DNA from: Patescibacteria group bacterium
Lineage (GTDB): Bacteria > Patescibacteriota > Patescibacteriia > UBA10025 > JAHIVO01
NCBI GenBank assembly: GCA_022560375.1
Contig: JADFTK010000004.1
Span: 1 to 46,184 of the forward strand
Direction of reading: 5' to 3'
Length of the DNA stretch: 46,184 nucleotides
Below are positions 30,550-31,768 of this stretch, piece after piece; position 1 is the first letter of the stretch; the number at the start of each line of letters is the position of its first letter. Made by a program: the position numbers and the translations under genes. The notes beneath the pieces are model-generated. The model had not been told where the DNA came from. It did no database searches and worked only from the letters and a program-made list of their open reading frames with translations.

Positions 30550-30858
30550 TTATTCCGCTTCGTTCCTCCGAGTAAATTTTATATTGTGTATTTTCTCTAA
30601 CATATTCAAGGTAGCTTCAACGGAAAGATTTTTCGTATCCACCAAAATCAGCCGGGTGCCAAATTGTTTTATCAAAGGCGCAAAAAATTCGTCGCCCCAT
30701 GAGGGAGAAAAAGTGTTAACTCCGGTAAAAACAACTTCAACTGATTCACTGTCGGTAATATCACTAAGTGACGGTTTAAAAGCGGCCAAGGCTTCCCTGC
30801 CTTCTTCACGAGAAGTGAGCGTGGTACCAAATTTTTTTAGTTCAATAACCATATACAT
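30550..30858 (-). CDS. STAS-like protein (DUF4325-type)
   Basis: IELKKFGTTLTSREEGREALAAF...SVEVVFTGVNTFSPSWGDEFFAPLIKQFGTRLILVDTKNLSVEATLNMLEKI; abuts the upstream GHKL gene with 0-bp spacing. Confidence 0.7.
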   Translation of the reverse strand: MYMVIELKKFGTTLTSREEGREALAAFKPSLSDITDSESVEVVFTGVNTFSPSWGDEFFAPLIKQFGTRLILVDTKNLSVEATLNMLEKIHNIKFTRRNEAE

Positions 30859-31599
30859 TTAATAATTTATTATAGCAAAGGTTCCTTTAACAAAATCCGG
30901 ATTTTTTTCTATCTTGAGAGTTTTATTTATTTTACTCAAAGAAAGGACAGCGTCGCCCGAGTGGAAAAAAAGTTTGAAATTATAATCTACTACCACTTTT
31001 CTGACGTATTTCAGACCATTACCTCTGGCTTCCGGGGCACGTCCCGATATTATTTCCGTGAAAGCAACTTTTAATGCCTCTAGATGATCGGGTAGAGTAG
31101 GCCTGACTTGCCTTAATGTTTTTAATACCCCCTGTCCTCGATCCACCAAAACAACCTTTCTTTTGTTAGTATTATACCCAAAAAATGTTCCTGGCACATC
31201 CGGCCAATTACCAAGGTTGTGGTCAAAAGAGTTATTGCCAATCTCCCCGGTTACAGCGACTATAAGCGGGAATATTTTAGTAAGATTATAATTTTGACTT
31301 AAATCATACTCAAGTCTAGATAATCTGGCCTTAAAAATTGACCTGTCCGGACAATGGAATCTTCGTAGTATTTCAGGAGGATTTGGATCAAGCGCCCATT
31401 TTTGGGCAATTTTTAAAAGAACCTGAAAATTATTTGATAAAAAATTTTCAATATCATTTTCATCATAATAGTATCGGCTGATTTTACCGGTTTGCTTCCT
31501 TTTAGCCTTTAAGCGGCCGGATTTGTCCCATCGGCGCAAAGTTTGCTGGTTAACCGCTAATTTGTTGGCTGTTTCTCTTATGGTAAATTCTGTGTTCAT
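30859..31599 (-). CDS. MerR-type HTH fused to GHKL (HATPase_c-like) ATPase
   Basis: N-terminal TIRETANKLAVNQQTLRRWDKSGRLKAKRKQTGKISRYY; GHKL motifs EIGNNSFDH (N box), VDRGQGV (G1), ARGNGLKYV (G2). Confidence 0.75.
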   Translation of the reverse strand: MNTEFTIRETANKLAVNQQTLRRWDKSGRLKAKRKQTGKISRYYYDENDIENFLSNNFQVLLKIAQKWALDPNPPEILRRFHCPDRSIFKARLSRLEYDLSQNYNLTKIFPLIVAVTGEIGNNSFDHNLGNWPDVPGTFFGYNTNKRKVVLVDRGQGVLKTLRQVRPTLPDHLEALKVAFTEIISGRAPEARGNGLKYVRKVVVDYNFKLFFHSGDAVLSLSKINKTLKIEKNPDFVKGTFAIINY

Positions 31600-31735
31600 A
31601 AACAATTATAAGAATAACACATATACATTATTTAAACAAGTTTTTCTATTTTTTTGAGGTTTTTTTTATAAAACCTATACATTTTGTGTGGTATTGGCTA
31701 TACAAAAACTACCTAATATAGAGACATTTACTTAA

Positions 31736-31768
31736 TAAAAAAAGAGGTGTGAATAACACCTCTTTGTA
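31736..31768 (-). terminator. Rho-independent terminator of the cupin gene
   Basis: Minus strand AAAGAGGTGTtattcACACCTCTTTTTTT. Confidence 0.8.

Follow-up and report, generated by a model that had tools for sequence, protein, structure and literature searches.

Organisation of the locus

The window analysed here is a stretch of 46,184 nucleotides (contig JADFTK010000004.1) from a member of the Patescibacteria, which are tiny and mostly uncultured bacteria. Two adjacent genes on its minus strand encode an ATPase of the GHKL type headed by a helix-turn-helix (HTH) domain and a small STAS-like protein of the DUF4325 family. The following features belong to this gene pair, all of them on the minus strand:

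30550..30858 (-): STAS-like DUF4325 partner ORF, 102 aa, directly after the ATPase stop
30700..30702 (-): codon of Ser53, a residue invariant in 24 relatives, in SPSWxDEF of the DUF4325 partner
30859..31599 (-): HTH-GHKL ATPase gene, 246 aa from the ATG at 31599, stop codon 30859-30861
30862..31431 (-): GHKL ATPase domain, residues 57-246, from the conserved boxes and the predicted structure
31432..31587 (-): BldC/MerR-like winged HTH, residues 5-56, from Pfam MerR_1 and the fold match of a relative to the BldC-DNA complex 6ama
31543..31545 (-): codon of Gln19, which co-varies with operator position 8 (Gln with T)
31741..31765 (-): terminator-like hairpin belonging to the upstream gene and setting it apart from this operon

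A preliminary description of the window had given the ATPase 248 aa, the length obtained from the TTG at 31605; read from the ATG at 31599 it has 246 aa. The same description had the DUF4325 ORF starting right after the ATPase stop. There is indeed an ATG at 30858, in the same frame as the ATPase gene, but the true start is probably at 30852, because the relatives begin at the residue aligned with Met3.

Domain identity

By profile the HTH of the window ATPase is of the MerR-type winged kind, matching Pfam MerR_1 with an E value of 2.2e-8 (34.5 bits against a cut-off of 21.6) and HTH_17 with 2e-6. The match to the NCBIfam BldC family (NF033787; E 6.3e-5) reached 22.8 bits against a cut-off of 77, which places the protein outside the BldC family proper. 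Nevertheless the HTH of a close relative superposes on DNA-bound BldC (6ama) with 1.8 A over 53 residues and 42% identity. The HTH also resembles those of excisionases, yet no conserved integrase neighbour appeared and a role of this kind was discarded.

No Pfam family matched the GHKL part of the window ATPase, and HATPase_c_2 was matched weakly by three of 20 relatives (best E 0.002). The GHKL boxes are invariant in the 20 relatives, namely the N box (E119/N123), the G1 box D153RGQG157 (D153-x-G155-x-G157) and the G2 box R192GNGL196. The structure predicted for the ATPase (pLDDT 92, pTM 0.88), in which low confidence is limited to the ATP lid at residues 187–191, shows the Bergerat (GHKL) fold, and among the matches listed its best counterparts in the PDB are the GHKL proteins GyrB and Hsp90/TRAP1, with probabilities of about 0.9-1.0. 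The protein would be expected to bind ATP. As for the partner, the window protein falls just under the curated cut-off of PF14213 (20.2 bits against 23, E=4.8e-4), and this family matches all 24 partner relatives scanned, with a best E value of 1.1e-9.

The domain make-up that had been read from the letters alone, an HTH and a GHKL ATPase followed by a STAS-like protein, was thus upheld by the MerR_1 match, the invariant boxes and the relatives of the partner.

Distribution and gene neighbourhood

Matches to the ATPase were found in 54 of 192 relatives, a few of them HTH-only or weak, and the related proteins share 35-71% identity with the window protein. A scan of GTDB yielded 441 confirmed loci; the names attached to the best 80 are mostly those of Patescibacteria (Kerfeld-, Komeili-, Uhr-, Magasanik-, Portnoy-, Moran-, Peregrinibacteria and others). 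In all loci with enough contig room the DUF4325 gene overlaps the ATPase gene or sits 0-75 nt downstream of it, and this recurrence of the pair in dozens of genomes far exceeds chance. About a dozen relatives of approximately 190 aa are without the HTH and keep the pair. The neighbourhood survey, in which both fused and HTH-less pairs were seen, therefore agrees with the pairing that had been proposed for the window.

No other gene was conserved around the pair among the relatives surveyed; the two largest neighbour clusters proved to be antisense ORFs of the pair itself and were set aside. A tblastn search of the ATPase against phages and plasmids found nothing, and one IMG/VR contig encodes a relative. 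Two loci have an extra copy of DUF4325: in one it lies about 5.8 kb away from the pair and has a C-terminal extension (L047:1937-2341, +), and in the other it follows the copy of the pair in tandem (L076:6434-6682, -).

Operator repeats in the promoters of the module

Comparison of the upstream regions revealed that the promoters of HTH-bearing members share direct repeats with the consensus TTGYATAGRTTT. A matrix built from 37 loci recovered sites in 34 of them on cross-validation. When it was applied to 64 held-out loci, at least one site was present in 62 and at least two in 55. The sites have a strongly preferred orientation in these held-out loci, 152 lying on the coding strand and one on the opposite strand (2.3 expected in shuffled sequence), and their spacings cluster at about 10, 20–21 and 31 bp. 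The repeats go together with the HTH, since among 14 HTH-less loci a site at 10 bits was found in one. The exception (L068:6767-7174, -) is a shortened ATPase ORF of 135 aa with an operator site still upstream, apparently a truncated HTH-bearing gene.

The window operator is weaker than most and consists of a strong copy and, 54 bp from it, a weak one. These copies and the elements of the core promoter discussed below are located as follows:

31668..31687 (-): main operator copy ACAAAATGTATAGGTTTTAT, 15.2 bits
31634..31639 (-): putative -35 box TTGTTT, with the 17-bp spacing common to L032-L034
31614..31633 (-): second operator copy AAATAATGTATATGTGTTAT, weak (6.9 bits), lying in the spacer of the promoter and placed as in L032-L034
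31611..31616 (-): putative -10 box TATTCT, 11 nt before the ATG
31605..31610 (-): TATAAT, alternative -10 box, 5 nt before the ATG

As far as the comparison reaches, paired operators are almost only found at the promoter of the module itself. Across 36 genomes the tandem pattern was counted 16 times, and 14 of these cases are at the module's own locus. In the genome of the window the count of single sites equals that of the reversed control (6 vs 6), giving no regulon signal, and the sites that score with the matrix outside the locus are intragenic. In a Kerfeldbacteria genome (L033:8150-8192, -) the gene of a 310-aa HTH-type protein has upstream of it two operator copies (17.0 and 13.7 bits) at a distance of 23 bp from each other. 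This is a possible second target, for which reason small regulons may exist.

A one-residue, one-base recognition code

Residue 19, in the recognition helix of the HTH, varies together with operator position 8, the pair sharing 1.01 bits of excess mutual information whereas the next of 246 columns reaches 0.29. The combinations observed were Asp–C (48), Gln–T (27), Met–T (5), Asn–G (10), Asn–T (4) and others (6). Asp thereby predicts C in 48 of 48 cases and Gln or Met predicts T in 32 of 32, and Asn goes with G in 10 of 16.

Co-change was assessed on a tree for which only the GHKL part was used, the residue being scored as Asp or not and the base as C or not. On this tree 18 residue changes and 18 base changes are accommodated by only 19 changes of the two taken jointly. 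There are about 18 co-changes, and 17 of 18 independent pairs changed in the same direction with none in the opposite one. Well-supported branches hold only 5 of the 18 independent pairs, about 4 of them in the same direction and 0 opposite (p 0.125). Moreover, two genomes carry two copies of the module each, one copy with Asn19 and G-type sites and the other with Asp19 and C-type sites, as expected if the paralogues are insulated from each other. On this comparative evidence the HTH appears to read the repeated operator words of its own promoter by a code of one residue and one base.

Core promoter and mode of regulation

In most loci the operator copy nearest the gene (3'-most) also supplies the −35 box. 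The arrangement TTGYAT-17-TAnnnT is present in 58 of 85 loci, against about 1-9 at most other offsets; a second peak of 41 at 12 bp corresponds to a TATGnTA extended -10 pattern. In 32 of 66 loci the −10 box lies 6–7 nt before the ATG, which is the spacing of leaderless mRNAs. The window and its three nearest relatives (L032-L034) depart from this geometry. Their pattern is TTGnnn-17-TAnnnT, the −10 box stands 10–12 nt ahead of the start codon, and the second operator copy falls in the spacer or on that box.

The TATAAT that had been proposed as the −10 box of a possibly leaderless mRNA lies where it was described, but TATTCT is the likelier −10 box because its TTGnnn-17-TAnnnT geometry is conserved in the nearest relatives. 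The suggestion of leaderless transcription was close, and it would fit the many relatives with the shorter spacing; in the window there is probably a leader of 4–5 nt and not strictly none.

Repression by tandem binding of the BldC type is suggested by the residue-base code together with the overlap of the operator with the −35 box. The BldC-like HTH on the GHKL ATPase would bind the TTGYATAGRTTT repeats head to tail, on the same helix face and overlapping its own core promoter, and would most likely repress its own operon by keeping RNA polymerase off the −35 box; in the clade of the window the block would fall within the -35/-10 spacer.

The repeats could also be those of a promoter activator that recruits RNA polymerase in the manner of some proteins of the MerR or response-regulator type. 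The spacer typical of MerR activators measures 19-20 bp, whereas here the −35 box is itself made up of an operator copy, and the spacing has the normal value of 17 bp. Operator copies do lie upstream of the −35 box as well, as activation would have it, and BldC protects varied promoter positions (PMC5859096); on balance we regard an activator as improbable.

We therefore favour a self-contained, autoregulated two-gene module whose HTH binds repeats in its own promoter and most likely represses it, a reading to which we assign a probability of roughly 0.7. It had been suggested that the HTH would let the GHKL subunit act on a promoter without a sigma factor. The operator repeats, the HTH-less control and the recognition code all favour this proposal, in a narrower form in which the clear promoter is the module's own only. 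To judge from these comparisons, the module is very probably an autoregulator that acts on DNA without a sigma factor. Moreover, the existence of relatives without the HTH implies that the GHKL/STAS pair would have a core function that is not transcriptional and that the HTH would mainly control dosage.

An operon of this kind also calls to mind toxin-antitoxin or other selfish modules, in which one member of an autorepressed operon is harmful and the other neutralises it. The patchy presence (54/192), the want of conserved neighbours, the autorepressor-like operator and the fact that a genome occasionally has a second copy with a different operator would all suit such an element. However, Pfam, NCBIfam and PADLOC show no likeness of the proteins to known toxins, the matches being to HTH and DUF4325 families; the HTH-less forms persist without autoregulation; and the motifs of both the ATPase and the STAS-like protein are strictly conserved, as in signalling proteins. 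A selfish module is thus the least probable of the explanations considered, and autoregulation by the HTH remains the preferred one.

The STAS-like partner

Control of the ATPase by its STAS-like partner is plausible. The partner, produced together with the ATPase, would modulate the nucleotide state of the GHKL domain, and this state would most likely set the hold of the ATPase on DNA or its multimer state. In a classical partner switch, which is compatible with autoregulation, the GHKL subunit would be a serine kinase that phosphorylates Ser53 of the STAS-like protein and so frees or locks the DNA-binding protein. By analogy with SpoIIAA, Ser53 is a candidate phospho-acceptor; it is invariant within SPSWxDEF, as are the E/N and G boxes of the ATPase, and the two genes are paired. 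A phospho-cycle of the classical form is nevertheless doubtful, because no SpoIIE/RsbU-type PP2C phosphatase was found in 30 carrier genomes, the same search being positive in 5 of 14 controls (B. subtilis and four others). In addition HATPase_c_2, the Pfam family of the RsbW/SpoIIAB type, matches few members here, and these weakly. In a joined-chain model, in which in-frame pairs were read through their stop codons, the domains fold (about 90 pLDDT for the STAS-like part), but the model does not fix how they are arranged, nor the interface between them (pTM 0.62). We consider a classical kinase switch unlikely, though more probable than activation of the promoter.

The genome of the window also encodes a stand-alone RsbW-like HATPase_c_2 protein of 187 aa (G000:C8, L198:2415-2978, -; E 2.6e-10); the surrounding ORFs that were read include no obvious gene for a STAS protein or a sigma factor.

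Relation to known systems

BldC of Streptomyces binds direct repeats at promoters head to tail and in the same orientation (PMC5859096). The module resembles it in the MerR-like HTH (42% identity for the relative of the window protein) and in the same-orientation promoter repeats. It differs in that BldC is a lone HTH of 68 residues whereas the HTH of the module is part of a fusion with a GHKL ATPase, in the word recognized (AATTxxxx(C) for BldC, TTGYATAGRTTT for the module), and in its targets, BldC having a large regulon and the module its own promoter as the only clear one.

With SpoIIAB/SpoIIAA and RsbW/RsbV the module shares a GHKL ATPase and a small STAS-type protein encoded together. 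In contrast to those systems, the DNA-binding domain sits on the GHKL subunit, DUF4325 takes the place of the STAS family, and there is no conserved sigma-factor neighbour and, in the 30 genomes searched, no SpoIIE phosphatase. A possibly related pair occurs in Francisella phage vB_FhiM_KIRK, where a DUF4325 ORF of 112 aa lies beside a 293-aa hypothetical protein (Fhv_0046/0047), near phage repressor genes (PMC7924643), although no HTH fusion or operator is described there.

We found no description of an HTH–GHKL/DUF4325 system in the open-access literature. The parts are known and their combination with a DNA target of its own is a variant, for which the comparative evidence on the DNA target is unusually strong. 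An uncharacterised domain pair thereby gains a testable wiring diagram, with a defined operator, recognition residue and promoter, in a large bacterial group whose regulation is hard to study. We tentatively suggest, at somewhat less than even odds, a DNA-binding partner switch spread through the Patescibacteria, in which the STAS-like protein would directly control the promoter grip of a BldC-headed GHKL ATPase, free of any sigma factor, and an evolvable one-residue code would keep copies in one cell apart. If the STAS-like partner does control binding, partner switching need not go through sigma factors.
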